A DNA stretch of 27,388 nucleotides, from positions 1 to 27,388 of IMG/VR virus record IMGVR_UViG_3300043427_001701; one strand, given 5' to 3'. Positions 3,026-27,388 of this stretch are shown here, piece after piece. Positions within the stretch are counted from its first letter, which is position 1; the number at the start of each line of letters is the position of its first letter. The notes beneath the pieces are model-generated. The model worked only from the letters and a program-made list of their open reading frames with translations, ran no database searches and was not told the origin of the DNA. The DNA comes from a virus. Both the position numbers and the translations under genes were made by a program.

Positions 3026-3026
3026 G

Positions 3027-7245: not shown

Positions 7246-7253
7246 TATTTATA
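7246..7253 (-). promoter_or_regulatory. T4-type late promoter box TATAAATA
   Basis: The minus strand reads TATAAATA, an exact match to the T4 late promoter consensus recognised by the phage sigma gp55. It overlaps the TAA stop of the 503-aa fibre gene and lies about 25 bases ahead of the ATG of the 321-aa structural gene. Confidence 0.65.
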
Positions 7254-8760: not shown

Positions 8761-8782
8761 TTTTGCTCCTCGTGCTTACAGT

Positions 8783-8790
8783 TATTTATC
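8783..8790 (-). promoter_or_regulatory. Late-like promoter box GATAAATA
   Basis: The minus strand reads CGATAAATA in the 35-base gap between two fibre genes, one base from the T4 late consensus and identical to the box at 13434-13441. It would start the 503-aa fibre transcript, with the ATG 23 bases downstream. Confidence 0.5.
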
Positions 8791-8795
8791 GCATT

Positions 8796-10697
8796 TTACG
8801 GATATGCTACTGTTGACTGCCATTGCCAGTCGCTAGATACATGCGCAAATTCGATGATGTATTTTGTAACTGTAAATGTTACGGTTGTAGTAGGATCAGG
8901 ACTGACTGTAATATCCTGTAGAACGTTAACGTTTTGAACACCAGCACTGTCAACTGCAATTGTACTCTTGTTAATGTTGCTATTAACATCAATAGGATCA
9001 GTTGCAGCCGTTATTTGCGAAGCTAGAATTCTTACAATCGATCCTTGAACTTTTGACGCAGGCAATGGCATAAAAACTAATAGAAAACCTCTTAGGTTAT
9101 TCTCGAGAGCACCTGGAGAAGTACTGCCGTCATATTCGCCTATTTGTGCTGCACCCATACCTGTAACATCCATGGTAAGATAGGTTGTTGCTGCCAAGAC
9201 TTCTCGATCCACATACCCCTTTGTAGCTACATGATTGTCATTAGATTCGGTTAATAATGGATTTTGTATTACGTCAAATTCACTTACAGGTTTTTTTACG
9301 TTTGTAATAAACTGTTGATTAACTAAGTCTATGTCGCCTGTTGCTGAAATTTCAAAATTAGAACTTACACTGATTCTGTTTCCATTTAAATTAATGTTAT
9401 CTATGGTTAATTCTGTAAGTGTACCTAAAGTTTGAAGGTTACTGTTTACAACTGTGCTGCCTAGTGTTGTTTTACTTAAAACATTTAGGCTATCAATTTT
9501 ATAAGTTTCAGCACTGTTACTAATGTCAATACCCTGATTGCTGGTCCAAGATTTTGTTGCATTTTTCCAAGTCCATGTTTTGTTTTCACCGGTATGTAAA
9601 ACTGGACCACTTCTAACTACTATGCCCGAATCGTCTAAATCTATGTCAGACAACACAGTACTGCCATCTTGTATAGACAGTTCTATTTGCTTGTCTTCGA
9701 CTAACAGAGTTTGTGTTGAAATAGTTGTTGTAGCACCTTCGATTATTAAATCTCCAGTAACTCTAACATCACCATTAACATCAAGTGTGTAAGCCGGAGC
9801 AGTTTCTTTGAACAATCCTAATCGTTGATTGGTAGCATCAAATCTAGCAGCCATAAATTCGCCGCTGCCATTACGCATCTTTAAATATAAATCTTTGTTT
9901 GTTCCGTTGTTTCTTAAAACAGTTATTGTACTTTCTTTGGTGATAGTAAACGGTTCGTCAGCAAAAATTTCAATACCGGAATTATTTGATATTGTAAGTT
10001 TACCAGTGGTGGTATCGTTTTCAGTTGCACTTAAAAAATTATCCTTGGTATAAGTATTACCTAAGTTGTCTATTAGGCTTTCTGCAGACAATGCTTTGCC
10101 ATACCATGTAAAATCATTAAAGCTAGAGCTAATATTAAATCCAACTTTTAAGTCAAGAAATCCGCTGATTAACGGAAATGGTGTAAACGCTACTCTTGAA
10201 TAAATTCCTACTAAGCTGCCTCCAACGTAAAACTTTACAATTATTCTATTTTGACCAGTGGAATCTTTGACTGTAGATACTTCATTTCCTGATCTAGCTT
10301 GAGTTTTAGAATAATCAGGGCCTACTAGAACCAGTTGAGTTCCGTCCCAAAAATACATTTGGTTGTTGGTTCCATCTATCCAGATATCGCCTTGTGTTAA
10401 ATTTGTTGGCTGTGTACTAGAAAATATAGTGCTGTCTGTGCTTTTAAAAGTAGCACCGTCATAGACTTTTAACCTACCTTCAGCAGTGTCATACCAAACT
10501 TGCCCTCTAATTGGTTTTGCAGGCGGAGCAGTGTTAGCAAAACTTTCTAAAAGTTTAATAAAATTTTCATTTAAAACTTCGCCAAAGCCTTGGTAATTTT
10601 TTCCTATTAATGCTAGATTTGTAGTACTTGTATCTAATCTACCATCTACTAGTTCAACTAATAAGCTTCCATCAGTTTTATTTAAATTATAACTCAT
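8796..10697 (-). CDS. Tail fibre protein, 633 aa, member of the fibre paralogue family
   Basis: A 633-residue fibre with the shared N-terminal domain: ENFIKLLESF (44-53), GQVWYD (65-70), GDIWID (103-108) and LVGPDYS (124-130). The middle contains a phage-fibre beta shaft with the phrases LDVNGDVRVTGDLIIEG and LLVEDKQIELS, often seen in marine T4-like fibre proteins. It then has HVATKGYVDRE, a common fibre helix leading into the tip, and a C-terminal domain of about 140 residues ending WQWQSTVAYP that I do not recognise. It starts in a TAATG overlap with the upstream collar-domain fibre, with GGGG six bases ahead, so the two are coupled. No enzymatic motif is visible. Likely a fibre or baseplate-attached spike segment. 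Confidence 0.85.
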   Translation of the reverse strand: MSYNLNKTDGSLLVELVDGRLDTSTTNLALIGKNYQGFGEVLNENFIKLLESFANTAPPAKPIRGQVWYDTAEGRLKVYDGATFKSTDSTIFSSTQPTNLTQGDIWIDGTNNQMYFWDGTQLVLVGPDYSKTQARSGNEVSTVKDSTGQNRIIVKFYVGGSLVGIYSRVAFTPFPLISGFLDLKVGFNISSSFNDFTWYGKALSAESLIDNLGNTYTKDNFLSATENDTTTGKLTISNNSGIEIFADEPFTITKESTITVLRNNGTNKDLYLKMRNGSGEFMAARFDATNQRLGLFKETAPAYTLDVNGDVRVTGDLIIEGATTTISTQTLLVEDKQIELSIQDGSTVLSDIDLDDSGIVVRSGPVLHTGENKTWTWKNATKSWTSNQGIDISNSAETYKIDSLNVLSKTTLGSTVVNSNLQTLGTLTELTIDNINLNGNRISVSSNFEISATGDIDLVNQQFITNVKKPVSEFDVIQNPLLTESNDNHVATKGYVDREVLAATTYLTMDVTGMGAAQIGEYDGSTSPGALENNLRGFLLVFMPLPASKVQGSIVRILASQITAATDPIDVNSNINKSTIAVDSAGVQNVNVLQDITVSPDPTTTVTFTVTKYIIEFAHVSSDWQWQSTVAYP

Positions 10698-12805
10698 TAT
10701 ATTACCCCGTGATAGATGATAAAGTTAATAGTAGCAAACGGATTGGTAACATTAACAGGTGTGTTGGTTGTACCGTCAAAGATTCCACCACTTAGTCCAA
10801 GTCTGCTGCCGAGACCGCCATCAATTCCGCCGCCAATTAATGTCTCAGGAGCAGTAGTAGTTGCGTTCGTTACTGCATAAAACTGTTCGCCGGTGCTGCT
10901 TTGTAAATCATGTTGGTGTTCAGGAAGATTATTTATATCAAGTGTAACAGTTTCGTTTCCGGCTACTCCGCCCATTGTACCTGCTGCACTGTTGCTTATT
11001 CTGTTAGCGCCGCCAGGTAAACCTAAGCCAACCGGTATACGCCCTCTATAATCAGGCAATCTAAATAAATTGCTTGGATCGCTTGGATTACCAAAATACC
11101 ATGTAGTGGAATCTACAGCACTGTACCCTAGTGCTGTTGCCAAAGCACCGTATGTGGTTAGTGACACTTCGTCATTGTCACAGAAAAACCAACCAGTTGG
11201 TGCTATCAAGCCGCCGTACATGATTACGCTTCCAACCGGAATAGTTGAAACGCTGCTTATGACTTGTGCTTGAGTAGCTTTGTACAGTGTGCCGGATCTA
11301 TTGATTAGCAATTCATCTGTGCTTTGTATACTGCCGGGTGATGCAGTTGTAATACTTGGCTTTGTATCAACAAAACTTGCTGCTAACGAAGTACTAAAGG
11401 TTTTTGTACTTCCGCCTGTTTGTCCGTCAAATGTAAATCCACTACTAGTAACATCACCGGTCATATTAAATGTTGTAGCACTGTTTAATTTACTAGCACT
11501 TCCTGTTATATTGCCTGTTACATTGCCTTGTAGATCTCCTACAAATGTACCACCAAAAAAGGTTGTTGCATATACGCCTGCAAATTTATTGGAACTTGTT
11601 CCCAAAGTACTGATGTTTGATGCAGATGGAGGAACAATTGCGCCTGCTGTGTTGCCTACAGTGAGCGTTCCTTCTATGGTTGTATTACTGCCAACCCTCA
11701 GTTGTTTTGCAATACCTACCCCGCCTTTGACTGTTAGTGCGCCAGTGGCTGCACTTATGCTATCAAATTCGCTTCTAACAGTAAGTTTACCGCTGGTGTC
11801 TAATGCAGCATCGTCGCCGTCTTCGACACCAATGTTAACATTGCCTTTGATGTCTAGTTTTTCTTCTGGACCTAGGTTGTTAATACCTAGATTTCCATTA
11901 TTAGCAATACGCACTACAGGATTTCTAGTTACTGGAGTTCTAATATCAATTGTGCCTGCACCGCTCAACTCTAGTATACCGCTTGATCCTTCGACTAGCA
12001 TACTAAAAGTTTTTATTGTTCCTACATCTAGACCGTTGTTTGGAAGTTTGATAGAGTTATTAAAAATCTGTGTACCAGCTGCTGAATCTTTTCTTGCCAA
12101 ATCATTGACTAAAATTGTTCCGGCTATGTTTGACGTGTCATCTGGGTTAAGATTAAGTCTTTCGGCTGTCTTGGCTTCGCCTGCTATTTTGGCTTTTTGA
12201 CCGCTGATGTTAGGACTTAGATTTACCCCAACTGAAATAGTGTTACCACTGTTCCATCCTCCTAAAGCAGATTTTAATCTAAATTGTACTGCACTTAGTA
12301 TACTAACTGGAATATTATTAACATAATTGACAATTACGTCTCTATTAATGTTAGCAGTATCAACAACAATTTCTGGAATAGCACCTGTTTTGTTTCCGGT
12401 GGTAAAACTAGGACCTACTAGAATCCAGCCAGAACCTGTATACAAATACAGTTGGCTAGTACTAGTGTTAACCCAGAGGTCTCCTACTACACTGTTAACA
12501 GCTTCAGGTTCACTTGATGCTTTTTTTAATCCGCCTGCTGCAACCCAATTGGTGCCATCATATATTTTTAATTGATCAACGCCGTTGGTAGTGTCATACC
12601 ACAATTGTCCTTCTACTGGACTAGTAGGTGGATTTACATCTGCAAAGTTTTCCATGAGATGTAAAAAGTTTGTTAACACACTAGAACCGTAGTCTTTTAA
12701 ATTTCTACCAGGTAAAAGTAGGCTGGTTTCTGTATTAATACTATTATCATCTACAGTTATTGTACCCTTGTTAGCAACATCGGTAAATGGAATATTATAT
12801 GCCAT
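10697..12805 (-). CDS. Tail fibre protein with C-terminal phage tail collar domain
   Basis: A 702-residue fibre. The N-terminal domain is the divergent third copy of the shared anchor: LTNFLHLMENF (44-54), GQLWYD (66-71), GDLWVN (108-113) and ILVGP (128-132). The shaft has repeated beta phrases (for example LTVKGGVGIAKQLRVGS, and a Gly/Asn run FVGDLQGNVTGNITGS). Residues 522-702 are a phage tail collar domain: IPVGSVIMYGG, APTGWFFCDN, FRLPDYRGR and LPEHQHD. The collar fold is that of the T4 short tail fibre gp12, and the HxH pair is of the kind that binds metal in fibre tips. Start and stop codons both overlap neighbours as TAATG, so it is co-translated with genes on both sides. A GGAGGA Shine-Dalgarno sequence supports the start. 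Probable receptor-binding fibre. Confidence 0.9.
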   Translation of the reverse strand: MAYNIPFTDVANKGTITVDDNSINTETSLLLPGRNLKDYGSSVLTNFLHLMENFADVNPPTSPVEGQLWYDTTNGVDQLKIYDGTNWVAAGGLKKASSEPEAVNSVVGDLWVNTSTSQLYLYTGSGWILVGPSFTTGNKTGAIPEIVVDTANINRDVIVNYVNNIPVSILSAVQFRLKSALGGWNSGNTISVGVNLSPNISGQKAKIAGEAKTAERLNLNPDDTSNIAGTILVNDLARKDSAAGTQIFNNSIKLPNNGLDVGTIKTFSMLVEGSSGILELSGAGTIDIRTPVTRNPVVRIANNGNLGINNLGPEEKLDIKGNVNIGVEDGDDAALDTSGKLTVRSEFDSISAATGALTVKGGVGIAKQLRVGSNTTIEGTLTVGNTAGAIVPPSASNISTLGTSSNKFAGVYATTFFGGTFVGDLQGNVTGNITGSASKLNSATTFNMTGDVTSSGFTFDGQTGGSTKTFSTSLAASFVDTKPSITTASPGSIQSTDELLINRSGTLYKATQAQVISSVSTIPVGSVIMYGGLIAPTGWFFCDNDEVSLTTYGALATALGYSAVDSTTWYFGNPSDPSNLFRLPDYRGRIPVGLGLPGGANRISNSAAGTMGGVAGNETVTLDINNLPEHQHDLQSSTGEQFYAVTNATTTAPETLIGGGIDGGLGSRLGLSGGIFDGTTNTPVNVTNPFATINFIIYHGVI

Positions 12806-13413
12806 TAGCTATTTCCTCCGCTCAAGCTTTGTACTCTAACTGTGTAGTCGATTTGTATCAATCTGTTTAAACTTTTTTGCACAGGATGGAATATCACGTG
12901 AGTTAGTAATCTACCACTGCCTGTAGGAGAATAACTTTTCAATCCAAGTTCGTCAAACACAAACTGGTCTTCTGCATTAGCAGCGGTATCAAATGCTGCT
13001 TGACCATTGGGCTCACCGTAATCTAATAAACAAGTAACAAAAATATCAGTATAATTTGTGCCGCTAACGTGTCTAGTTTCAATCTTGTTTCTTGTTGGAT
13101 CGAGATTGTTTACACTGCGATCGTCAACAACCTTACTATAAGTTTTGTTATACAAGCTTGCATTAGTGCCGACACTGTTAGGAGTGAGGTAAGTAATAAT
13201 TCCGGTAGGGTCGACACTGGTTCCGCCATTGCCAAAGTCCATTTCGTAAATAAAACCTTGACCGATGTTGGCTAGACTTTCTGCTAATGCAATACTCATA
13301 TTTTCATAATGAATAGCGTTACGCTTGTTAATAAAAATTTCACCAGAATCTGGATTATGAATTTTTATGTGTCCTTCGACGTGAACACCGCTATAATCTG
13401 TTTTTTGTTCCAT
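12805..13413 (-). CDS. Virion structural protein, 202 aa, head of the fibre operon
   Basis: A 202-residue protein starting MEQKTDYSGVHVEGHIKIHNP, of a type found next to fibre genes in marine T4-like phages. It has an N-terminal beta part (HIKIHNPDSGEIFINKRNAIHYENM), a Gly-rich middle (MDFGNGGTSVDPTG), and a C-terminal part (FVFDELGLKSY, then LLTHVIFHPVQ and IDYTVRVQS). No signal peptide, membrane segment or catalytic motif is seen. It starts 23 bases after the giant gene, behind a late-like box and a GAGGT ribosome site, and ends in a TAATG overlap with the collar-domain fibre. That coupling suggests its product assembles with the fibre, perhaps as an adaptor or chaperone. The exact role is not known to me. 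Confidence 0.8.
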   Translation of the reverse strand: MEQKTDYSGVHVEGHIKIHNPDSGEIFINKRNAIHYENMSIALAESLANIGQGFIYEMDFGNGGTSVDPTGIITYLTPNSVGTNASLYNKTYSKVVDDRSVNNLDPTRNKIETRHVSGTNYTDIFVTCLLDYGEPNGQAAFDTAANAEDQFVFDELGLKSYSPTGSGRLLTHVIFHPVQKSLNRLIQIDYTVRVQSLSGGNS

Positions 13414-13433: not shown

Positions 13434-13441
13434 TATTTATC
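13434..13441 (-). promoter_or_regulatory. Late-like promoter box GATAAATA overlapping the giant gene's stop
   Basis: The minus strand reads CGATAAATAC, one base from the T4 late consensus. The TAA inside it is the stop codon of the giant gene. It would launch the operon of the 202-aa protein and two coupled fibre genes. Confidence 0.5.
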
Positions 13442-16400
13442 GTGGTAGCGATATTGTTTTCTCTCTTATAAATCTTGCAATTTTATTGTTGCTATCAGTC
13501 AATGAAAGACTTGTATTTTCATCAATGATGTCATTCCACACATTGCCCGATCTTGTTACAACCTGTAGTTTTTCTCCATTCAACGGAATGTTATCAGGAT
13601 GCAAGTTATCTTGTATGTTTAATACTAGCAGTGTTCTTGACTGACTTTCTATGAGAACATTTTCTACAGTGTACTCTGCCGGTACGATTACATCGCCTTC
13701 TGCACTGTCTTGTGCAATAGTAGCATCAAAACTATAGAAATTTCTGTCCTTCAACTTGTTGTTGATTTCCAACGGCAGTGTTTTTCTTAGGCGCTTGCCG
13801 CCTACAAAGACGTCAATCATACTAGCTGCAACAGTATTAACAAATGTTTCATATTCAGTATTGTTAAGAACTGATATGTTTAGTTTTTCAGCATAAGCAT
13901 ATGCAGTTGCAAACACGTCAAAATCAAGAAGAATTTCTCTTGTACTACCATCAGAGAAACTGGTTAAATCTGTAACAGTGGTATTTTCTTTATATGGAAT
14001 AGTTTCTTCAGGACCCTGACCTTGTATAAGAGTTCCGATTGGATATTCTAATTTTACACCAGTTCCTAGCGTACCGCGTCTTAACTGACGCAACAGATTT
14101 CCGTCTCTAACATAGTATTCGATACGTTCGCCGTCGATCCAAATAATACCCGGTTGTCCGGTATTTCTATTTGGTTCTGTAATACCAGTGGCATCGTCAA
14201 GAACTATGTTTGTATCATAATATCTCAACGGTTGATTTAGTGTATATTCGTTTTGATTGTTCAGTCTCTTGAAGTGATAGCGATTGAGCATGTCTTTGAA
14301 TATTCTAAATCCATACTTGGGTTTACTAATTGGTGCAGTGAATTCTAGAACTTCTATTTTACTAGACTTTGCAGGCTTCTTAGCAAGTTGTACACTGTCT
14401 TTGTTGCTGTTTAACACATAATCAACTTGTGGTGATAGCAATTTGCCGTTTTTGATTACCCAAACATAATTTGCACTAACTGCTGGTTCGCTGAGTTTGA
14501 TTACGCCTTTGGTTAACAGATTTCTATCAACATAAAATTCGCTGTCTTCTGGAGCATAACTTGTAGCATATACAACATTGTAACTTGCTCTTTCAAACTC
14601 GTTTATATCGTGATTAGAAAACTTGTATATTTTTACAACATGTCCAGCTTTTGGTGCAAAACTAAATGCTAACGTATTGTTTTCTACATAATCAACATTG
14701 GTTACTGTAACGTCTATATAAGTGCTGTCATTGCCGTATGAAGCAATTGCTCTTGCTTCGTTTGGTTCTGTAGAATCAGAAACTATCAAATCGGCTGCAT
14801 CTCTAATATAACCATATAGAGTTAATGTTTTTCCATCTGATGATTTAGATTTAACATAGCCGCTGATTGTTAGACTGTTATCATCTAGCGACAGTGTTAT
14901 TTGATCTTCTAGAGGAATATTGTTTGTCCAAGCTGTTGAAGTAAATTCGATTACTGTATCCACAAAATAGTATTCTGCATCACGGATAATGTACACTTCC
15001 ATAGTGTCTCCGATTTTGCCAACTGCGGTTGTTAATAATTGAATACGTCCGTTAATAGAATCGTATCTCCAAAAATCGTTGGCTATTTTTTCTCCGTTGA
15101 TGTATACAAATATGTCTCTTTGATATATTTGTGTTATATCAGCAAACTGCCATCTATTAATATCATATGCACGTTCAGCTGTAAGAACGAATTTTTTTCT
15201 ATAGCCTGGATTTAATATTTTATTATTTGATTCAACAATAATATTGTTTGCCAATGGTGTTTTATTAAATGGCAGTGGATTGGTATCATTGTTAAACTTA
15301 TGCCAGAACTTTATTCCATCTGCAACAAAAGTTTGATCAATTACAATTTGACTGAGATTTGCTTCGGGAGAATTAAAGACTGTATAATCATATATTTCTC
15401 CGACTACGGTTTTTACAGTTAGTTCTATACCTACAAATCCGTTGTTGTCTACAATAAATCCGTTGGTTGCTACACCGTTCTTGGTTACAAAAACGCTGAG
15501 ACCAGCAGCATATTTTATAGATGTTTCAAGTACGGTGCTTGCAACTGTAACTGTAATTCTATCATTGTCTAATATATCAAGACCACTGTTGTCAATTAGT
15601 ATTATGCACAAGTTACGACCAGGAGTTAGAAGACTGCTGTCGGTTAATGCAAAAGTTTGAGTCTGCCAATCAATGGTGTATTGATCTGCATCAAGAATTA
15701 CATTATCAACCTTTGCTATTACATTGGTTTGTGATTGCGGTAAAGCGTTAATTGACCATTCAATTGTGCTGTTGTCAGTGACAAAGTTATGAACAGTTAT
15801 TATGCCCTGACCACTTGATACACGATTGTATACTCTAATATCCACTGCATCTGCTATTTGTCCTGGTACTTGCTCTTCAGGACCTTTACTGGTAGTAGGA
15901 GTTACAAAGCCGTCACCGTCAACTACAATGTCACCACTTTCAATACCCTTGGCTGTGGTATACTCAAAGTTACCGCCTGTTAGTTCAAGGTCAAATGTAG
16001 TATAATCAGGAGAAGTACTACCGTCGCTAGTTGACTTTCTAATGATAATAGTATCGCCACTTTGATTAGCAACATAAGGTTTGTCTGCTAGCACATTGTA
16101 TTTTTCGAGAATGTCACTTAGAACAATTGTAGATGTTATTCCGTCGCCAGTGATCGGTGCTATTACTGCGTAAGGAATATTAGCATTGCTGGTTGGGAAG
16201 CTTTCGCTATCCAATCTAATAGCGTTTTCATTAGCTGGAGCAGCAATTGATTTCCAATACACATTATAAACCACGCTTGCTTGCAATGGTTCAGCTAATT
16301 CTAAAATATTAGTGCTTCCATCTAGTATAAAGATTTCATCATCAAACGCTGCGTCAAATGTATCAAACGCTTCGGTACCAAACGCTCCAGTATCAAAACC

Positions 16401-19400
16401 TCTATTGGTTCCAAAATTGATAGTGTCTATTTGCACACCACCGTAGTCAACTCCATCCATTACCTGCGATAGATCTTTGTTACCATCAGGCTTAGTAGGT
16501 ATACCTGGCATACCACTAGTAGGATTATAGAAGTAACTTACTCTATCTGCTGCACTTAGCATACTTGCGTTTCTATAATAATCTACAGAAATTGCACTGT
16601 CAGTAGCAGGAGCAACTGCAAATTCAACTACTCCGAGATATCTTGTGTATCCTTTGGCGGTATCTTTTACATTCTTTACTGTATACTCACTGCTCAACAT
16701 TTCTATGTCGTCAACATAGACTTTAACTTTACTAACTCTTGTATCAATTGGCCATTTTAGAACAAATTCTGTTGTGCCTGCATTGCCTGTAAAAGTTTCT
16801 GCTGGAGCAACTTTAAGATCTGTGAATACAGTATTTCCCGAAAGTCTATCAAATTTCATCAATAGATGAGTGCTGCGTACTTTGCTGTTACCGAGTATTG
16901 CTACTGCAACTGCTGGTGTAGCTGATTCGGTTTGTGTTCCGTCAAATGTTATCTGAGGAGCACTGATATATTTTGCTCCACGAACATCAACATCTACAAA
17001 ATTTACTACACCGTTTGCTATAGTAGCACGGCCTCTAATTGTAGGACCGCCGCCGCCAGAAATAATAACATTAGGACCATCTGTCCATCCTGTTCCGCCA
17101 TTGTGTATTACAATGTCAGCAATTCCATAACCTAAATTGTCTAACCAATGTTTTTGAGGATATGTGTTGACAAATTCACTGTAAGTGTTTACAATATTGT
17201 TAGTTACATCTGTGCGTTCTGCTACAATTTGTCCACGTGTAACATCATAGCGAGGTGGTAAATCAAAATCAGTTACACTGGTTTGTGTTGGTTCTAATTT
17301 TTCATATGCACTTACATATTCTCTAACTTTGGTTTTGTATGGTTTTACTTCGTCTACATAATCTTGATAGTTTGTTAGATTATCATTTTTAAATGTAATT
17401 TTTTGTGCAAGCTCACCTACATTGTGTTTAGCAGTTACAAAGCTGGATTTAAATATCCAATCTACATTTACTTGTTCGCTGATTGCATATCTTATGCTAG
17501 AGAAGAACAAACGATTCCACTCAACTTCCAGTTGATCGACAAAGATATCGTTCTGCAAGGCAAGCATGATATTTCTAATTTCATCTACTGGTTCTCTGTC
17601 ATAGAGATAGCTATCGTAAACTTGGTTATCAAAACCTCTGGCTGAATTTTTAAACAACAGGGTAGAAAGTTGTATTGTGCCATCTTGTCTGCCTACTGTT
17701 TTATAGTTAACAGTATAGTCTACTTCGGATAGGTTGTTGATTTTTTCTAATAGCAACCAACCCCCTGCTCCAACGTTTTCTATTTTAACTACGTCGCCGA
17801 TGTTATCTTCTAAACTTTCTAACGCATAACTACCGGGTATTAACCAGTTGATTGCAGTGGTATCGTCGTATCCATCAGCATACCAATTGACATAATTCCA
17901 ATACAATGTGGTATCATATTTTTGTATGCTGCCTCTGGCCCATTCACGTGTAACAGGGTTATATTCATATAATGCCCAGAATCCACCGGCAGTACTGTCA
18001 TTTTCTACCAACGCTGTAAATTTGCGCACAACAACAGTTGTATTATTGCCGTAATTTTTTCCTTGCTTTACAACATTTGCTTCAACCACTTGACCTATAT
18101 TGTTGATAAACAATTGTATTTTTGCACCAGATCCGCTGCCTCTTATCTCAACGCTAGGACCTTTTCTGATAGAACCCGATACATAAGTAGGATCTATGTA
18201 TCCACGTCCCGGATTGGTTATTGTTACACTAACAATTCTTCCGTCAATTATTGTAGGTTGTAATGTAGCAGTTTGTATTCTTGCAACTGGCACAAATCTC
18301 AACAGATTTTCGCTGGCAATTTTTGTATCGTATACAAAATCAAATTTGCTAGGTTGTGGATCTATTTTTTGCAAAGTACTTAAATTAAAGTCATCTACAA
18401 TTAGATTTTTAGCTAATACACTGTTTGCTCTTTCGATTATTTGTTTTAGAGCTTCAATTTTGTTAACAAACATACTTTGATTTGGTGTATTTAATATGCC
18501 ATATCTTCTAGGTATGCTGATGCCGATATCTGGCAACGTATTGCTGTTTTTATCGTACCCAACCAAACTGTCAACCCATTTGTTAACTATGTCTTGATTT
18601 GGCTTACTACTAGCAACGCCTTCAGTTAACAATTGATATTCACTGTGTATGTTGTTGTCTGTTTCCAGTAAATTCCATTCCACATGTAAGACAATAGTTT
18701 TATCTTTTATTAGATTTCTAACGTTATACATACCAAACTTATTGTTTTCATAAAACGCAATAAATCTATAACCTTGGCCGGCAGGATCTTGTATTAATTG
18801 AGCAACATCAAACGCACTAAGTTTTCTGTTATCAGATGCTGGTATAATTTTTTTGTTTTTTACCCAGTAATAGTATTTGGTATTAAATCTTCCGCTTACA
18901 GGATCGTATATCTGCGCTGAAACATATGAGTTATCGCTGTACTTGCTTTGCCCGCTGGCGCCTTCTGCAAGTCCTTCTACTGTATCAGTAATGTCGTCCC
19001 ACTCACTTGGTAGCAGATTGCTTTCAACCCATTCGTATACATCTACAACAAACGAAGGAATTAATGTATTCCAGTTGTTTGTTTTATATTCAAGGCCGCG
19101 CTGACGAGTGTTGAACCATTTGGCTGTGCTTAGATCCCACCAAAGTTTGCCCACATATGAACTATCCCAAGGAGTTTTATTGCCAGTATTGGTAACGCCA
19201 ATATTGTACACTGCCGGATCATAGTATAGTTTGTAGCTCAATTCTTGTTCGGCAGGTGCTGCAATTTTACCTTGTACAGGATCAATATAATCTAAATAAG
19301 TTACAAGATCACCGTTGGTGGTATCATACAAGAAAGCAGTTCTAATTTTGCTTAAATCAACGCGGTCTTGTACAAGACTATTGGTGTTCCAGCTGCTAGC

Positions 19401-22400
19401 ATTTCTCTGTGATCTAAAATCTACTATAAATCCAACGTTAGTAACAACACCAAGTGCATTTGCAAAGTTTGCACTAGGCATGCCTACAATAATATGATTG
19501 TCATTTAACAACAGTGTTGGATTAATGGCCTTGTTAGTTTCTCTAAAATAGCGCATCTTTTCGGCATACACCCAAACTCCATTGATGTTTTGATAAACAT
19601 AAACTTGGCCGTTATCTTTGATTACATCCTTGATAGCAGTTGCTTGATTATCAAATACAGTTGTATCATTATCAAAAGTACTGTAAGCTTCGTTGTCGCC
19701 GTTAATACTCAATACTGCTAGTTTGTTTTTTGAAAAATCAATGTGCCATCCAAACAGTTCATTCTTTTGTCCAGCTGGCGAAAACACAGTTTGACTTTGC
19801 ACAAACAGTGGATTTACACTATCAAAGTTATAATCGTAAATGTATACTTTTCCATTGTCTATACCAGTATCGTCTGCGGTAATTGCAGAAACAGCAATTG
19901 TGTTGCCGTTGTCACTTACTGCAATACTGTAACCAAAATCTTCACCTGATATCACAGCATCGATATTTGATTCATAAACATATCTATTGTTGTTGTCTAA
20001 TCTGTAAACAGTTACACGATTTTCGCCAGTACTGTTTAGTACACCAGTTAACGCAATAACATTTCCAGTGCTGCTGATATCAAAGCTACGAGCAATGTTA
20101 GCAGCGTTTCCTAATCCAACACTATCGCTGTCTACTGCAATTACATCTCCTAGGTTTGGTACAAATCCAACATAGTCAATGTATTGATCTAACTCTTCCC
20201 ATTCTGTGTTAACACCAGGAATTACACCGCTACCAGCAAAAATATTTGTAGTTGCTCTATATAAGATAAATCCTGCAAAAACTATTTCGTCTTGGTAATA
20301 GGTTTTTAGAGGATCAAATGTACCTTTGTATCTTCTGTCTCTGCTGTAAACAAATCTATCTGTATCAGCTAAGTTGCTGTTAACAAAATATATTCTTCCA
20401 TTATCTGCAACGCTTCTAATAAACAACCTGTAATTGTTTTGGGTATCAAATGCAGTTTTTACAGCAATACCAAACTGTTCATTGTTTTGCGGAACAGGTG
20501 AAATTATTGTAGTTAGAAGACGGAAGGAATTAACTGCTTTCTTATAAACATGCACAACACCTTGATTTGAAAGTCTACTGATTGTTCCTGTTTCGTCTGC
20601 GGCCAATATGTCAACCGGTTCCCAATCTTGTGCAAGAGTGCTGATAGTGCTATCGGCTATACCAGCTGTTATATTTCTAATAGCTCTCCAAAGTGTTCCT
20701 CTGTCGCTTACTATATCATCTTGGTTGTAAGCACTGGTACCGTCAAATTCGCCGGCATACTTGCTTTTTACATTGCTTGCATTAGGAGCACCTATTAGTA
20801 AATATTGTCCGTTTTCTGTTAGGTTAACACTGGTTCCAAACCCTGCACCATCACTGTACAATATGCCTGCGGCAATCAATCCTGTGCCAGCACTGTGCGT
20901 TCCAACAGTTGCACCGTTAACAGGTAATGTCAAGTCTCGATCTGTGTATAAGTTAACACTAGTATCGCTGGTAACTTCAACAAAGTAGTAGTTGTTGTTT
21001 AATTCAACTGATCCTGTGGTTCCTGAAATTTTTATACGTTCGCCAGTTTGTAATTGGTGATCAGCTGTTGTTACAACTTCTATAGGATTAGCATTGTTTA
21101 TACTTTGTATAGTTTGCAATGCAGCATCTTCTGGAGAAATTGTTTGCAACAGTGTATAATTTTGCGATTCGCTGATTCTGTTGTAGATTGCAACTGAGCC
21201 GTTAGCACCGCTGCCCGGCAACCCGACTGCTAAAATTTGGTTAGATCCGTTGGCAGCAAATGCTGTGGCAAATCCTTGATCTATTAAGCCTGCTTCGTTT
21301 GGAATTTCTTGCTGTAGATTGAATATACGAGAATTGTCTAGCACTTCATTTTTATCGTTGCCGTTGTTGTCTACCCAAATTCTTTCATTTTCCAAAATGT
21401 CATAGGTTTGGAAAATGTTATTAGCATCTGAAATGTTAGAAATTTTTCTGCTGTTTAGTTGTGAAATAATTCCAAGTGTGCTGTCACGCAAATCAATAGT
21501 ATCGTCGTTGATTGGAGTGTTTGAATAAAATTCCACAGTGTCGATACTTACTTTTCTTGCAACCCAAAAACCATTTACATCTTCGTTTACGTTGTTGATG
21601 CCGATTATTTCGCCGGCATTAAACGGCACAGAAGTGTTAAATGTAGCAACAAATCCTCTGTCAGTTTTGTCAATTTGTACTATTCTCACAGGAGAAAGAA
21701 TATGCTTAAACACATTCCAAGTTTGCAAATATTCAGGGACCCATATATACGAATCAATACTTACTGTGTTAATATTTAACGCTAAAACGTCAGTGGCATT
21801 TCTAGCCAGGAAATTAACTTGGTCAATTGCAACATAGCCGCCAGTTTTAGAAAATTCAGTGGTATCATTGGTAGTAGGAAACGGACTATGGTTATAACTT
21901 TGGTTAGATAGATATACGTCTTTCAATGGATATTGATATACCAAATCTGTTCTGGTAATATCAACTGCGTTGACCAATTCAACTGTTTGTGGTTCTATTC
22001 TAAATTTGGTTTCATCTAACAAATATTCCACTTCGTCAAAACTGTCTAAGGCACCGTATTGACCGGTACGAATAGCCCACTCTTCAAAAAATTGAAGACT
22101 GTCTTGATTAGCACTGCCGAGTTTATCAAACAATTTTATTAATGCATTGTTTGTTCCTTTGTCTTGAATAAACCCTTGATAGAATTTGTACTGACTTACA
22201 TCATCATTTATAATGTTTTCTAAATATTGACGTTTTTGATAGCCAATCAAGTGCTGCGCTAGACGCTGTTGCTCTGTATCAAAGTTGTCGGTGTCAAGAT
22301 CATAAAAATCTGTAAATTGATTTGCTCTATAATCCCAGTTGGGTTTCAATTCACTTACTGGGCGCTCAGGCAGAACATTCCAGTTAGAGTAAACAAACTC

Positions 22401-25400
22401 TTCAGTGCCGCTGTGAGTAAATGCAGAACTATAATAGAACTCTTTAAACTTTACAATTTCGCCTATGTAATAATCTTTATAAGATTCCCATTCAGTTATT
22501 TTGGCTTCATCGTAAATGAAACCTGGAATATTTAAACTACCGGTCCAGTTGTCAGTTCTATATCCTACAACTTTGATACGCTCTTGTCTGTAGCCAGTCA
22601 TTGGAGAATATATTGTGTCGTTGAACACTGTTTCGTTATCTATAATAACAACATGCTCTTTTTGTACCAACGGAAGTTTTGCAAAATATATACCTTCTGT
22701 GGTTGCTTTTGGCTGTAAGCTAAAGTCGTTGCTGTTATCTCTAATTACGTTGGTATATGAATTTTTTAGTTTTGTAGTATCTGCTTGTAAGATATCAAAT
22801 CCGTAAAAGTTATCGTACACATTATCTACTACATAAAATTCTCTGTTAAATTTTAATAGATTTGCGCCAGGACTTACTACAATTACACTGCTGGTTGCCC
22901 AGTTTTGAGTAGTCCAGAACAAGAACTCTTTTACAAGCAAGGTAAAGTTTTCTATTGTACCAGTTGCTCTGTTAAAATATTCAAATTCAAACCCTTTGCC
23001 AATTAGGTAATTTTCATATCCTAATAAGAAGTCAACAACTTCTTGTGCAGTTTTTAAAATAGTTCCGTAGTTTAAAACACTAACAGTGCTAAAAAATCCA
23101 GTTCTTAAAATTGCACTGGTGCCGCCAATAATAGGCAACGATTTTAATATTGAATAAAATTGATTGTCAAACTCAACGCCGGTTACATGATTTTGATTAA
23201 CTCTATAAAATTGATTTTCATATCTTACAATTTTACCAGCTACAAGAGTTTGTCCAGCAGTCCATTCTAAGAAACTTTCACTTATACCGCCAACATTTGT
23301 AGCAGTATCGCTGTTTGTAATTCTATGAGCGTTGTATTCAAAGAATGGATCTTCTTGATTGTAACCAGAAATTTTATAACCAGCGCCGGTTTTTTCTATA
23401 ATTACACCACTGTAATTTACAACTTCTTGCGGACTACTGGTATTTAAAACAATTTGATAATTTTCGTAAGGGATAAACACGTTGCCTTGATTCAACGGTG
23501 TTCTGCTATCCAATACCAGTCTCAGTTTGTTTTTGTCTGCAAATCCTCCGAGTTTGAATCCAATTTGATTTTTTAGAGATTTTACAGTATCAATATAGTT
23601 GGTATATTTTTTAGATAGATTTCCACTCATATAATCAGAAATGTAATTTACAAGACCCAGTGTTTGGTTTGTTATATCGTTGGTTTTGGTTTTAGGAAAT
23701 ATTAAATCTTCAAGTTTAATTCTTTTGCTGTTGTTGTAAACTAGATTTCCAGCCAAGTCTCGGCTGATTCTAGCTCGGTCAAATCCTTTGCCAAGCAGTT
23801 CTGCAGGACGATTTAATAAAATTGCAACTAGCAAACTAAACACATAATCACTGCTGCGTCTCCATGCAGTTTCCACAGGTGCTTCATCACCAAATGCAAA
23901 ATTTACGTCTTTGCTAACATTAAAACTAAATTCTTTTGCATAACCACTTTTTAACGGATCAACTAATTGTCCAAATTCGTTAACTGGCAAATGCTGCAAT
24001 AGTTGAGGACGGACAAATTTTTTGTTTCTAGTTATAGGCTTTCCTGGTTCTTTTATAGTTCCAGTTTCTAGGTCTCTCCATAGTATTAGATTATCACTGG
24101 TATAAGGAGCCGGACCATACACACTTTCCCACCATGTAGGTTTATTTGTAAACCCTAGCATTTCCCAAGGATGTGTATGTGGACGATCTGTATCGTATGC
24201 TTTTTTGTAAACTGCTCTCCAATAACCAGGAAGAGTTTTACTAGTATGATTACTGCTACGACTGTAGTTGTAGGTAAATGGTGATCCTAGTGTTACAAAA
24301 TCTGTAGTTGTATAATCTGCATTTCCTACAAGTTTTAACCAATTAACAAAATCAGTAATAAGTATTTTGTTTAGATCAGTAGATGACACTTTAGTATTTC
24401 TATAAAATCCTTCAATAAAATCATAGATATCAAAAATTTGAGTATCATAATTGATTTTGATATTGTTGTAAATTCTTAGTTCTAATTCCAATAATAGATC
24501 ATCGCGATAGTCGTTGTATGCAACACTTAGACTACCGTCGTGTCCTCGAATTACAGTTTGAGGCTGACTATAGGTATTATCTACAAATATTTCAGGTTCA
24601 AACTTAGGATATAATCCTAGTTTAGTTGGAGTTTGTGGTATAAAACTACCTTCTGTATTGTCATATTCAAATATTTCAATTATATCGCCGTTGTTCATTG
24701 TAGCAGAAATTTCTACAAATCCGTTGACTGTAAAGGTGTAATCTTTTTTATATGTAAGTTGTAAATTGTTTATATAAACATAGACTGCTTTGTTGTCTAA
24801 TGTTTCGTTATTATAGGTTCTTGATAGTGCGTAAAACTTGTTTCTACTATCTAACACACGATATTGAAGTTTTTTATCGCCGCCATATGCTAGCATATCT
24901 GTGCTGTAAAATGGCATATTTTTATTTTTGTCTTTGTTAACTTCATTGAGAATTAAATCAACGTGATCCTTAACGTTTCCTACAAAAGAACTTGATTTTG
25001 CCACTGATAAAAATTCACGCTTGAATTTTCCATATTCATTTTTTGCAAATCTAATAGCGTTTACTACGTTAGAATCTCTGTCAGTTAAATGATACAATGG
25101 TAAGTTAATCGGTCCTGTATGTTGTACAAACTTTTTACCGTATTGATTAATTTTTCCTAGATCTCGTAAATTACCTACACCAGGATGCTGTCCAATAAAT
25201 GCAGGTACTTCGGTTACCAATCCTTCTACATGGTCGTTTACTTGACCTAATGTAAATTCTGTTATGTTGTTGTTTAGAGGATTACGCTCTAGGTTATGAG
25301 GTATTTCGTAATAACCTAAATTGTTTTTACTTTTATCGCTCAAACACTTTAAAACAACAATATCAGTTTGTTGAATATTGTTTGTTAATTGTACATGTCT

Positions 25401-27388
25401 AACATCATTGATGTTTACATAATTCCAATCAGTTCCTTGAATTAAAAATTTATTGTTTACAAATACTTTAACAATCAAATCATTTAAATTTGCACTGGAA
25501 TCAAACACATCAATTGGGAATAAATTCAAGCTATCTTCGCCGGTAAACTTTCTTACAACATATTGTTTGCTGCGTTCGCTTGCTTTGGTCCAACTGTTGA
25601 CATATTCAAATGTGCTGTCTTTGTATTTTTTAAGATATGTTTGATCACTGTTTATAGTTAACACAACATTGTTTCGTTCATACTCATAACTTTTTGATAG
25701 CAAATCAAAATCAAACACAATATCGCCAACGTTATTGATATTTTTATAACTTAATGGAAATCCCAATTCAGCGTCGTTGTTTCCAGATCCTACTCTATAA
25801 GCAAATACTCTATTGCCGTTGAAATTTGTAGAAGGATAAAAATCGGTATCACTTAAAGAGTAACCGTTGTTGTCATACAATTCGAAACCAGGTGCTTGAT
25901 TAAGTCCAGACTTGTCTTGGGCCAATTTCCATTCTGTTCCGTTGTACCAGAACATACGTCCGGCATAGCGGTCGCCACGTTTTACCAACACTGTTTGATC
26001 TTCTATTGGATCTGTATCTGTGGTTTCTACAAGACTGATTTGATAATTGTTGTTGTGTGTAATGAATCGTACTTCGTATATTTTACCGTTAACAAGAGTA
26101 TCGGGGTCAGCAGTAAATAAAACTCTCATTCCTTCTACTAGATTTATTCCATCAACGTTGTATCCACTGCTGCCTTCAATTGTACTGAAGACGTCTCTAG
26201 TGAATACATCAACAAGGTCAACATTGACCTTTGCTGTAGTACCATGATTATACAAACGCAAGCCTGCTTCAAATTCAATAATTGGACGCTTTGCTCTAGC
26301 ACTCTCGTCTATTTCGACAGGCTGATTATTGATAGTGGCACTTTGTTCGATAATATTTCTATGGAACCAACGATTGTATCTAGCCCATCCATTTCTACTA
26401 GCGTCACTTCTATTAACACAAATATAATCTTTAGATCCAGCAAAGCTCAAAGCATCGCCAAACGGCACACGGTCAAATCCGTAACGATCAAACGGTACTT
26501 GACTGTCTTGAGTAAAGATTGCAGGAACTTCTAAATCACTTACTGGTACCAGTTTGATTCCTTCGCCAACTCCTTCAACATAATACAATCCAGTGGCATA
26601 TTTTTCAGGAGTTACAAATCCCTGAAAGTATACTTTCATTCCGTTGGAAAAATTCCAACCAGCACTGGTGGTGTAGGTCTTTTTACCGATGATTTCTGCT
26701 TCAACGTCAATTTCGCTAGCTGCTTCAATGTCGTAAACGTTGAAAACTCCACTGGTATTAATATCATACTGACTGATATAATACAATGTGTCGGGTGCGT
26801 TCATAGGAACAGTAAATTCTAAAACTCCATTTTCAACAAATCCGGCAGAAATAAAGTCACTGCGATCTACAAGTGAATCTGTGTCGTTGGCAGTAATATC
26901 AATTCCGTCTGGATATAAAGTAGTAACAAGACTACTATCCACTACATCAACTGCTGGCTGAAATGCTCTACTTACAGCAATACTAATCGGCTGTCCGGGT
27001 GTGTTGATCTCGAAACGATAGGTTTGTCCTCTATATAGTTTAAGTGATGGATTTCTTGTTCTGCCATTTGGTGTAAATAGATACGCAAAATTGTCGTCGT
27101 CTTCTACTAATGTAACTTGATATGTGCTTACAATGTTAACGCTTTGTCCTCTAACAGGTACTTCTTGCGGGCCGTTTGGCAACCAATAATACTCGCGGAA
27201 GTTGGTAAATTTGTCAAAGCTGATGTGCGGATCCCATGAATAAAATTCTTGACTGTTTAACAAACTGTGGTTAGAAGTGTTGGCTCTAAATGCATGTAAT
27301 TGTCCAATGTAGTCATTGTAATCTTTGTAATATACTACGTCATCTATGTTGTTTTTGCTTATAAGTGCAGGCTCTAATTGATAGTTTT
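13437..27388 (-). CDS. Giant modular virion structural protein, 5' end beyond window
   Basis: One uninterrupted frame of about 4,650 codons, open at the right edge, so its true start is not in the window. A TTG at 27263 is not the start: the 41 codons before it also code without a stop (for example DDVVYYKDYNDYIGQL) in the style of the rest. In order from the N-terminal side come a cupredoxin-like domain (26724-27125), a conserved-looking DRPHTHPWEMLGF segment near 24160-24210, four carbohydrate-binding-like modules, a seven-blade FG-GAP-type propeller (about 19420-21290), two glycine-rich GxGY-type segments (18019-18243 and 16930-17134), and repeated small beta modules with a VYVDDIE or VYINGEK core. 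The C-terminal end has IWIDGERIEYY and LRRGTLGTG. Giant proteins of this kind belong to marine T4-like virions, near the tail fibres or baseplate; the precise role is unknown. Confidence 0.9.
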   Translation of the reverse strand, partial: NYQLEPALISKNNIDDVVYYKDYNDYIGQLHAFRANTSNHSLLNSQEFYSWDPHISFDKFTNFREYYWLPNGPQEVPVRGQSVNIVSTYQVTLVEDDDNFAYLFTPNGRTRNPSLKLYRGQTYRFEINTPGQPISIAVSRAFQPAVDVVDSSLVTTLYPDGIDITANDTDSLVDRSDFISAGFVENGVLEFTVPMNAPDTLYYISQYDINTSGVFNVYDIEAASEIDVEAEIIGKKTYTTSAGWNFSNGMKVYFQGFVTPEKYATGLYYVEGVGEGIKLVPVSDLEVPAIFTQDSQVPFDRYGFDRVPFGDALSFAGSKDYICVNRSDASRNGWARYNRWFHRNIIEQSATINNQPVEIDESARAKRPIIEFEAGLRLYNHGTTAKVNVDLVDVFTRDVFSTIEGSSGYNVDGINLVEGMRVLFTADPDTLVNGKIYEVRFITHNNNYQISLVETTDTDPIEDQTVLVKRGDRYAGRMFWYNGTEWKLAQDKSGLNQAPGFELYDNNGYSLSDTDFYPSTNFNGNRVFAYRVGSGNNDAELGFPLSYKNINNVGDIVFDFDLLSKSYEYERNNVVLTINSDQTYLKKYKDSTFEYVNSWTKASERSKQYVVRKFTGEDSLNLFPIDVFDSSANLNDLIVKVFVNNKFLIQGTDWNYVNINDVRHVQLTNNIQQTDIVVLKCLSDKSKNNLGYYEIPHNLERNPLNNNITEFTLGQVNDHVEGLVTEVPAFIGQHPGVGNLRDLGKINQYGKKFVQHTGPINLPLYHLTDRDSNVVNAIRFAKNEYGKFKREFLSVAKSSSFVGNVKDHVDLILNEVNKDKNKNMPFYSTDMLAYGGDKKLQYRVLDSRNKFYALSRTYNNETLDNKAVYVYINNLQLTYKKDYTFTVNGFVEISATMNNGDIIEIFEYDNTEGSFIPQTPTKLGLYPKFEPEIFVDNTYSQPQTVIRGHDGSLSVAYNDYRDDLLLELELRIYNNIKINYDTQIFDIYDFIEGFYRNTKVSSTDLNKILITDFVNWLKLVGNADYTTTDFVTLGSPFTYNYSRSSNHTSKTLPGYWRAVYKKAYDTDRPHTHPWEMLGFTNKPTWWESVYGPAPYTSDNLILWRDLETGTIKEPGKPITRNKKFVRPQLLQHLPVNEFGQLVDPLKSGYAKEFSFNVSKDVNFAFGDEAPVETAWRRSSDYVFSLLVAILLNRPAELLGKGFDRARISRDLAGNLVYNNSKRIKLEDLIFPKTKTNDITNQTLGLVNYISDYMSGNLSKKYTNYIDTVKSLKNQIGFKLGGFADKNKLRLVLDSRTPLNQGNVFIPYENYQIVLNTSSPQEVVNYSGVIIEKTGAGYKISGYNQEDPFFEYNAHRITNSDTATNVGGISESFLEWTAGQTLVAGKIVRYENQFYRVNQNHVTGVEFDNQFYSILKSLPIIGGTSAILRTGFFSTVSVLNYGTILKTAQEVVDFLLGYENYLIGKGFEFEYFNRATGTIENFTLLVKEFLFWTTQNWATSSVIVVSPGANLLKFNREFYVVDNVYDNFYGFDILQADTTKLKNSYTNVIRDNSNDFSLQPKATTEGIYFAKLPLVQKEHVVIIDNETVFNDTIYSPMTGYRQERIKVVGYRTDNWTGSLNIPGFIYDEAKITEWESYKDYYIGEIVKFKEFYYSSAFTHSGTEEFVYSNWNVLPERPVSELKPNWDYRANQFTDFYDLDTDNFDTEQQRLAQHLIGYQKRQYLENIINDDVSQYKFYQGFIQDKGTNNALIKLFDKLGSANQDSLQFFEEWAIRTGQYGALDSFDEVEYLLDETKFRIEPQTVELVNAVDITRTDLVYQYPLKDVYLSNQSYNHSPFPTTNDTTEFSKTGGYVAIDQVNFLARNATDVLALNINTVSIDSYIWVPEYLQTWNVFKHILSPVRIVQIDKTDRGFVATFNTSVPFNAGEIIGINNVNEDVNGFWVARKVSIDTVEFYSNTPINDDTIDLRDSTLGIISQLNSRKISNISDANNIFQTYDILENERIWVDNNGNDKNEVLDNSRIFNLQQEIPNEAGLIDQGFATAFAANGSNQILAVGLPGSGANGSVAIYNRISESQNYTLLQTISPEDAALQTIQSINNANPIEVVTTADHQLQTGERIKISGTTGSVELNNNYYFVEVTSDTSVNLYTDRDLTLPVNGATVGTHSAGTGLIAAGILYSDGAGFGTSVNLTENGQYLLIGAPNASNVKSKYAGEFDGTSAYNQDDIVSDRGTLWRAIRNITAGIADSTISTLAQDWEPVDILAADETGTISRLSNQGVVHVYKKAVNSFRLLTTIISPVPQNNEQFGIAVKTAFDTQNNYRLFIRSVADNGRIYFVNSNLADTDRFVYSRDRRYKGTFDPLKTYYQDEIVFAGFILYRATTNIFAGSGVIPGVNTEWEELDQYIDYVGFVPNLGDVIAVDSDSVGLGNAANIARSFDISSTGNVIALTGVLNSTGENRVTVYRLDNNNRYVYESNIDAVISGEDFGYSIAVSDNGNTIAVSAITADDTGIDNGKVYIYDYNFDSVNPLFVQSQTVFSPAGQKNELFGWHIDFSKNKLAVLSINGDNEAYSTFDNDTTVFDNQATAIKDVIKDNGQVYVYQNINGVWVYAEKMRYFRETNKAINPTLLLNDNHIIVGMPSANFANALGVVTNVGFIVDFRSQRNASSWNTNSLVQDRVDLSKIRTAFLYDTTNGDLVTYLDYIDPVQGKIAAPAEQELSYKLYYDPAVYNIGVTNTGNKTPWDSSYVGKLWWDLSTAKWFNTRQRGLEYKTNNWNTLIPSFVVDVYEWVESNLLPSEWDDITDTVEGLAEGASGQSKYSDNSYVSAQIYDPVSGRFNTKYYYWVKNKKIIPASDNRKLSAFDVAQLIQDPAGQGYRFIAFYENNKFGMYNVRNLIKDKTIVLHVEWNLLETDNNIHSEYQLLTEGVASSKPNQDIVNKWVDSLVGYDKNSNTLPDIGISIPRRYGILNTPNQSMFVNKIEALKQIIERANSVLAKNLIVDDFNLSTLQKIDPQPSKFDFVYDTKIASENLLRFVPVARIQTATLQPTIIDGRIVSVTITNPGRGYIDPTYVSGSIRKGPSVEIRGSGSGAKIQLFINNIGQVVEANVVKQGKNYGNNTTVVVRKFTALVENDSTAGGFWALYEYNPVTREWARGSIQKYDTTLYWNYVNWYADGYDDTTAINWLIPGSYALESLEDNIGDVVKIENVGAGGWLLLEKINNLSEVDYTVNYKTVGRQDGTIQLSTLLFKNSARGFDNQVYDSYLYDREPVDEIRNIMLALQNDIFVDQLEVEWNRLFFSSIRYAISEQVNVDWIFKSSFVTAKHNVGELAQKITFKNDNLTNYQDYVDEVKPYKTKVREYVSAYEKLEPTQTSVTDFDLPPRYDVTRGQIVAERTDVTNNIVNTYSEFVNTYPQKHWLDNLGYGIADIVIHNGGTGWTDGPNVIISGGGGPTIRGRATIANGVVNFVDVDVRGAKYISAPQITFDGTQTESATPAVAVAILGNSKVRSTHLLMKFDRLSGNTVFTDLKVAPAETFTGNAGTTEFVLKWPIDTRVSKVKVYVDDIEMLSSEYTVKNVKDTAKGYTRYLGVVEFAVAPATDSAISVDYYRNASMLSAADRVSYFYNPTSGMPGIPTKPDGNKDLSQVMDGVDYGGVQIDTINFGTNRGFDTGAFGTEAFDTFDAAFDDEIFILDGSTNILELAEPLQASVVYNVYWKSIAAPANENAIRLDSESFPTSNANIPYAVIAPITGDGITSTIVLSDILEKYNVLADKPYVANQSGDTIIIRKSTSDGSTSPDYTTFDLELTGGNFEYTTAKGIESGDIVVDGDGFVTPTTSKGPEEQVPGQIADAVDIRVYNRVSSGQGIITVHNFVTDNSTIEWSINALPQSQTNVIAKVDNVILDADQYTIDWQTQTFALTDSSLLTPGRNLCIILIDNSGLDILDNDRITVTVASTVLETSIKYAAGLSVFVTKNGVATNGFIVDNNGFVGIELTVKTVVGEIYDYTVFNSPEANLSQIVIDQTFVADGIKFWHKFNNDTNPLPFNKTPLANNIIVESNNKILNPGYRKKFVLTAERAYDINRWQFADITQIYQRDIFVYINGEKIANDFWRYDSINGRIQLLTTAVGKIGDTMEVYIIRDAEYYFVDTVIEFTSTAWTNNIPLEDQITLSLDDNSLTISGYVKSKSSDGKTLTLYGYIRDAADLIVSDSTEPNEARAIASYGNDSTYIDVTVTNVDYVENNTLAFSFAPKAGHVVKIYKFSNHDINEFERASYNVVYATSYAPEDSEFYVDRNLLTKGVIKLSEPAVSANYVWVIKNGKLLSPQVDYVLNSNKDSVQLAKKPAKSSKIEVLEFTAPISKPKYGFRIFKDMLNRYHFKRLNNQNEYTLNQPLRYYDTNIVLDDATGITEPNRNTGQPGIIWIDGERIEYYVRDGNLLRQLRRGTLGTGVKLEYPIGTLIQGQGPEETIPYKENTTVTDLTSFSDGSTREILLDFDVFATAYAYAEKLNISVLNNTEYETFVNTVAASMIDVFVGGKRLRKTLPLEINNKLKDRNFYSFDATIAQDSAEGDVIVPAEYTVENVLIESQSRTLLVLNIQDNLHPDNIPLNGEKLQVVTRSGNVWNDIIDENTSLSLTDSNNKIARFIREKTISLPR
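19420..21290 (-). repeat. Seven FG-GAP-like propeller blades within the giant protein
   Basis: About seven diverged repeats follow the pattern F-G-x-S/T-[VI], a short turn with N/G, L/I-A-V-G-x-P, then V-x-[VI]-Y. Examples are FGTSVNLTENGQYLLIGAP, FGYSIAVSDNGNTIAVS and DNHIIVGMPSAN. Seven blades would close an integrin-alpha-type beta-propeller, usually a binding platform. Two carbohydrate-binding-like modules are inserted between strands or blades (20608-20763 and 20188-20333). The number of blades is counted by eye. Confidence 0.6.
26724..27125 (-). other. Cupredoxin-like domain lacking copper ligands, in the giant protein
   Basis: NPSLKLYRGQTYRFEINT, then, after an insertion, GVLEFTVPMNAPDTLYY and SGVFNVYDI, follow the strand pattern of cupredoxin-like domains of marine phage proteins. 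In copper-binding members I would expect His in the first phrase and Cys, His and Met after the tyrosines. Here those places hold Gln, Ser, Asp and Thr, so it is probably a structural or binding fold only. Confidence 0.5.

Follow-up and report, generated by a model that had tools for sequence, protein, structure and literature searches.

The window (i.e., the whole stretch of DNA analyzed here) is the 27,388-base IMG/VR virus record IMGVR_UViG_3300043427_001701, and it carries a giant virion-protein gene followed by tail-fiber-type genes. The features of the locus outside the propeller itself are as follows:

13437-27263, minus strand: giant virion (baseplate-locus) protein, 4608 aa counted from the first TTG
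23151-23279, minus strand: CBM5/12-like copy at aa 1329-1371, beyond the propeller in the conserved scaffold (27.5 bits with Pfam CBM_5_12, over the cutoff)
22365-22505, minus strand: another CBM5/12-like copy of the conserved scaffold, at aa 1587-1633
19404-21974, minus strand: variable slot between two conserved blocks (aa ~1764-2620), delimited by blastp of the window against six giant homologs
21333-21392, minus strand: WVDNNGND.. hairpin motif at the propeller entry (WVDNNGN invariant in 19 sequences)
12805-13413, minus strand: next gene, 202 aa, PHROG 11259
10697-12805, minus strand: tail-fiber-type protein with a phage Collar domain (short tail fiber/gp10-like)

The frame of the giant open reading frame (ORF) is still open at the contig end, so the true N terminus is missing and the protein has 4608 aa or more; amino acid positions in the window are given in this ORF (13437-27263, minus strand) from its first TTG. 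The ORF matches PHROG 10938 ("virion structural protein"; E = 0, 1080 bits), and its homology to proteins of this family covers the conserved blocks. Giant virion proteins matching the conserved part were found in 60 phage records. The homologs in six isolated jumbo phages (i.e., PA5oct, Atu_ph07, Phosso, SCTP-2, CBB, and Vibrio 2.275.O) have lengths of 3340 to 4555 aa.

In PA5oct, Atu_ph07, CBB, and Phosso, the homologous giant gene directly follows annotated baseplate wedge genes, and in Vibrio 2.275.O this preceding position is taken by a gene annotated as CBM5/12. The location after the gp25-gp6 wedge genes was seen in the isolates; the window stops short of this region. Among eight contigs of relatives tested, seven have a gp25 gene near the propeller, and two of these contigs exceed 300 kb. 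The PA5oct protein gp355 is annotated as ESI-MS/MS (i.e., seen by mass spectrometry). T4 has gp7 after gp6, which is the matching position; membership of the giant protein in the T4 gp7 family was rejected by sequence, as phmmer and hhalign gave nothing meaningful and only the position after gp6 is common. A gene of ~200 aa close after the giant gene is also present in PA5oct, SCTP-2, Vibrio 2.275.O, and Phosso.

Three fiber-type genes in the window (7249-12805) have a similar N-terminal region (GKNxxGxGExxxENFxxLLESFxN..PPxxPIxGQVWYD), apparently a common attachment domain. In one of these tail-fiber-like proteins (7249-8760), the score of the C terminus against Peptidase_G2 (IMC autoproteolytic domain) equals the cutoff, which suggests a self-cleaving fiber chaperone. 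Further along, a radical SAM-like protein (170-1540, on the same strand as the giant gene) scored 25.4 bits, below the cutoff, and the giant gene of Atu_ph07 and Phosso is also followed, within a few genes, by a radical SAM gene.

Window residues 1-1763 and 2613-3376 align piecewise with the giant proteins of the six isolates (blastp E values down to 1e-163), and the propeller is left out of the alignment in all six. The slot between the conserved blocks is occupied in the isolates by unrelated sequence or by almost nothing, its length being 115 aa in CBB, 257 aa in Vibrio 2.275.O, 327 aa in PA5oct, 504 aa in SCTP-2, and ~1520 aa in Atu_ph07 and Phosso, compared with 869 aa in the window. None of the six slots contains an FG-GAP propeller, and the blade HMM described below finds nothing above chance in the six isolates. 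Searches of the isolated phages with the propeller (tblastn) gave no matches with the window or L003 as the query and, with an insert-free relative (L009), only two weak matches, both to other proteins. In PA5oct, the WIDSINSDNDWAV hairpin runs straight into sequence that lies after the propeller in the window, and this junction marks the insertion point. Among the viral contigs, the propeller region ranges from 478 aa (insert free) to 1101 aa between invariant flanks; in distant relatives, its identity to the window is 28%, compared with 41 to 42% for the scaffold. The slots of Atu_ph07 (aa 1640-3190; L028:17938-22590) and Phosso hold multiple beta repeats of the GxGY...GGxGxGA type; in them, a CBM5/12-like module directly follows the WLDD motif.

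The propeller occupies residues ~1982-2631 of the giant ORF and is of the FG-GAP_2 type. Its parts, together with the modules that interrupt it, are the following:

21300-21320, minus strand: strand FNLQQEI before blade 1 (DSSP of the model, E32-38), candidate closing (velcro) strand of blade 7
21138-21266, minus strand: blade 1 (blade HMM and model)
20871-21119 (approximate), minus strand: third insert, a weakly E1_FCCH-like beta module in the loop from blade 1 to blade 2 (4-1 loop; E1_FCCH, 20.9 bits, below the cutoff of 29.5)
20787-20840, minus strand: blade 2, strands A and B (blade HMM and model)
20607-20768, minus strand: CBM5/12-like module A, interrupting blade 2 in its 2-3 loop (strands B-C)
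20502-20558, minus strand: blade 2, strands C and D (model)
20346-20480, minus strand: blade 3 (model)
20181-20339, minus strand: CBM5/12-like module B, in the loop from blade 3 to blade 4 (4-1 loop)
19959-20096, minus strand: blade 4 (blade HMM and model)
19782-19940, minus strand: blade 5 (best Pfam FG-GAP_2 stretch, blade HMM, and model)
19554-19757, minus strand: blade 6 (model), holding a conserved TFDxxTTxFD loop (19608-19706)
19371-19526, minus strand: blade 7 (model)

A preliminary description made from the DNA letters had counted seven FG-GAP-like repeats at 19420-21290 and likened them to an integrin alpha propeller. The count agrees with a match to FG-GAP_2 (PF14312; E = 6e-10, 39.5 bits, cutoff of 23, two stretches) and with the seven blades of an AlphaFold2 model; the propeller does lie in the proposed interval, but its last blade reaches ~19371. 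The propellers of relatives score 45 to 79 bits with FG-GAP_2, which is the model that matches; a profile search of the window gave no match to FG-GAP (PF01839). Pfam lines such as FimH mannose-binding, DUF2326, and AnfO were weak and below threshold and were taken as chance.

The AlphaFold2 input was an alignment of 19 sequences (the window protein and its viral-contig homologs). The model of the propeller region (mean pLDDT, 68; pTM, 0.70) contains seven four-strand blades in a regular run, with pLDDT values below 50 in the third insert and part of module B. Using VIA-align, WDR61 and Ciao1 were matched at Z scores of 25.5 to 26.8 over ~290 to 315 residues, G-beta and WDR5 were similar, and integrin alpha-M was matched at a Z score of 25.4 over 355 to 360 residues (rmsd, 3.4 to 3.6). 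The recognizable best structural matches (Z scores of 25 to 27) are WD40 propellers and integrin alpha-M, all of which we take to have seven blades and which are aligned nearly whole; the presence of integrin alpha-M supports the likeness proposed earlier. The structure prediction yielded neither a fold other than a propeller nor a blade count that does not close, the two outcomes named beforehand as contrary to the proposal.

A blade HMM built from six units of L009 and from window blades 4 and 5 recovers four units in the window, giving strong scores for blades 4 and 5 and weak ones (7 and 12 bits) for blades 1 and 2. It does not detect blades 3, 6, and 7 of the window, which are too degenerate for standalone HMM detection and rest on the AlphaFold2 model and homologs. 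Seven FG-GAP units can be read by eye in the 478 aa of L009, and the blade HMM scores six of the seven strongly, all six being its own training sequences. The L009 model (pLDDT, 60) is poorer than the window model; six-blade propellers ranked at the top for it (240 residues), and ~300 to 327 residues were matched to integrin alpha at 18 to 22% identity. Calcium-type DxDxDG motifs number none in the window propeller region and zero to two in relatives. Many other FG-GAP_2 members also lack DxDxDG calcium loops, so the absence is compatible with the fold. On the model and the profile matches, a closed, integrin-alpha-like, seven-blade FG-GAP propeller is well supported as a prediction, and the FNLQQEI strand may close blade 7. 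The TFDxxTTxFD loop of blade 6 ranks among the best-conserved parts of the propeller across relatives and is possibly an internal docking site.

FG-GAP sequences were also seen elsewhere. Phage C48C1 (Kyanoviridae) encodes a 1480-aa hypothetical protein with eight FG-GAP_2 stretches (L048:1859-6301; E = 9e-57), so other phage proteins have FG-GAP propellers as well. A weak FG-GAP-like match lies in another giant gene, gene 108 of Sinorhizobium phage Phosso (L049:1303-6666; record positions 57900-68978).

Three modules break up the propeller disc. Two had been noted before, at 20608-20763 and 20188-20333, and were recovered at nearly the same positions as modules A and B, but the third (FCCH-like) insert had been overlooked. 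In comparison with L033, the nearest relative, identity is only 36% for the third insert, versus 76% for module A, 79% for module B, 71% for the scaffold, and 69 to 79% for the sequence around the third insert; the fast-changing part is therefore the third insert and not the CBM-like modules. The third insert is absent from the next relative, L034 (52 to 54% identical), and is thus a removable cassette. The propeller loops of other relatives hold other modules or none. By strand order, the inserts of the window and its group all lie in 4-1 or 2-3 loops, on one face of the disc; in integrins these loops open on the ligand face. One-sided insertion as a rule for the whole family was rejected, as marine relatives have C-D inserts (read by eye).

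Sequence comparison places modules A and B in the CBM5/12 superfamily. Modules A and B score 72 and 70 bits with a profile trained on both of them and on their homologs; this profile also matches chitin-binding domains of chitinases (2rts, E = 1.4e-6; 1ed7, E = 9e-4), phage tail fibers, an F2-pyocin fiber, and All3316 (PDB 7b5h), which we take to be part of a contractile injection system. The comparison with CBM5/12 profiles suggested in the preliminary description thus gave homology through the module profile, but with Pfam CBM_5_12 itself module A remained below threshold (19.2 bits; cutoff of 26.2) and module B had no match. In a relative with modules in the same two loops (L001), CBM_5_12 scored 42 bits, above the cutoff. 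Chitin binding in CBM5 depends on two adjacent aromatic residues (Y-W or W-W), and the hydrophobic core is made up of another Y and another W (PMC8449059). The pattern by which the modules had first been recognized (Y-x-x-x-D-x-[IV]-V ... LYRA or LWRA ... W-E) appears to consist of the core residues, and the core aromatics are kept in both modules. The binding pair is absent from both window modules, where the LxRA motif is followed by I-R-N or T-T-N. Any aromatic residue occurs at the pair position in 2 of 23 related phage modules, a descriptive count in which several of the modules had served to train the profile and some copies appear twice (window region and whole protein).

We consider it probable (roughly 0.6) that the propeller is a cassette in a giant baseplate-locus protein of a jumbo myophage and serves on the baseplate as an exchangeable platform for display or docking. 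The cassette would have been inserted at the small WVDNNGND... hairpin between scaffold blocks. As a rigid closed disc, the propeller would tolerate small beta modules in its loops (one FCCH-like and two CBM5/12-like modules here), and the platform may contact the host surface or a tail fiber during adsorption. Baseplate location, exposure, and a role in adsorption are inferred. Fast evolution and loop growth can also arise without receptor binding, and the CBM5/12-like modules in the conserved scaffold fit a plain structural role.

The propeller may dock to a host glycan, as first proposed, but the version in which the CBM5/12 modules are working lectins that hold a host-surface glycan appears improbable to us. 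Its appeal lies in the homology of the modules to chitinase chitin-binding domains, the score of 42 bits in L001, and the precedent of the phi11 receptor-binding protein (RBP), a phage propeller with a GlcNAc-sized cavity (PMC4901313). Against this, both modules and 21 of the 23 related phage modules lack the Y-W/W-W pair (PMC8449059), the two modules are conserved like the scaffold in the nearest relative rather than diversifying, and several jumbo phages have copies of such modules in the conserved scaffold. Sugar binding by modules A and B is, judged from their residues, unlikely. A plainly structural function, in which the propeller would fix tail fibers or adjoining baseplate proteins by analogy with the SU10 nozzle propeller (PMC9509320), deserves more weight but is less likely than not. 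The giant gene lies close before the fiber genes, the conserved TFDxxTTxFD loop resembles an internal contact site, and the modules retain core rather than binding residues; however, CBB and Vibrio 2.275.O have no propeller in the slot, so within this protein family baseplates can assemble without it. The wide variation in slot size and content would also be expected if the slot took up inserts without selected function. We regard such neutral elaboration as very improbable, given that the frame and fold are intact in many relatives, the entry and exit motifs are invariant, and modules A and B are 76 to 79% identical in the nearest relative.

The preferred reading, a replaceable platform, bears on a poorly known subject, namely host recognition by jumbo phages with T4-like baseplate genes; most giant virion proteins of these phages have no annotated function. 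The hypervariable slot, flanked by conserved blocks, indicates which part of the baseplate differs from phage to phage, and cultured relatives offer a way of testing it. More tentatively, and with the odds against it, the giant baseplate protein of jumbo phages may have a dedicated cassette slot that in one lineage took up an integrin-like propeller with module-swapping loops, giving two nested levels of exchange and a means of host recognition apart from tail fibers. CBM5/12 matches in phage tails call for caution before they are read as sugar binding, because the binding residues are mostly gone in this giant-protein family. A search of our literature library combining FG-GAP, phage, propeller, and baseplate found no paper.

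Among the closest known systems are the giant virion proteins of PA5oct, Atu_ph07, SCTP-2, and CBB (PHROG 10938), which are homologous to the window protein on either side of the slot and whose gene order agrees with that of the window's relatives; the six isolates differ in having no FG-GAP propeller in the slot. The integrin alpha head has seven FG-GAP blades, and alpha-M aligns over 355 to 360 residues. Some integrins (alpha-I type) carry a ligand-binding domain within one of the disc's loops. The window propeller differs in having no DxDxDG motifs and in its unrelated inserts, and any receptor role for it would be hypothetical. The C-terminal domain of phiKZ gp131 (PDB 4GBF, as cited in PMC4901313) is a precedent for a propeller platform, but it is not an FG-GAP insert in a giant protein of the wedge locus; it appeared neither in the PDB profile search nor among the structural matches listed, which excludes nothing. 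In the SU10 nozzle protein, a seven-blade propeller docks the short tail fibers and Ig-like domains are inserted between blades 2 and 3, and the SU10 and T7 nozzles resemble the window protein in being built on a tail propeller core (seven blades in SU10) with inserted beta domains; in the nozzles, a loop docks the fibers. They are podovirus tail nozzles that line the DNA channel, and the available part of that account reports no FG-GAP motifs (PMC9509320). The phi11 RBP is likewise a baseplate propeller and a probable sugar-recognition device, but it has five blades and is a separate homotrimeric RBP of a siphophage (PMC4901313). Compared with the chitin-binding modules of CBM5/12, the window modules are homologous by profile and keep the core aromatics but lack the Y-W/W-W binding pair (PMC8449059). 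Propellers in phage tails are already known, and the proposed nested exchange of modules is the most unusual aspect here.
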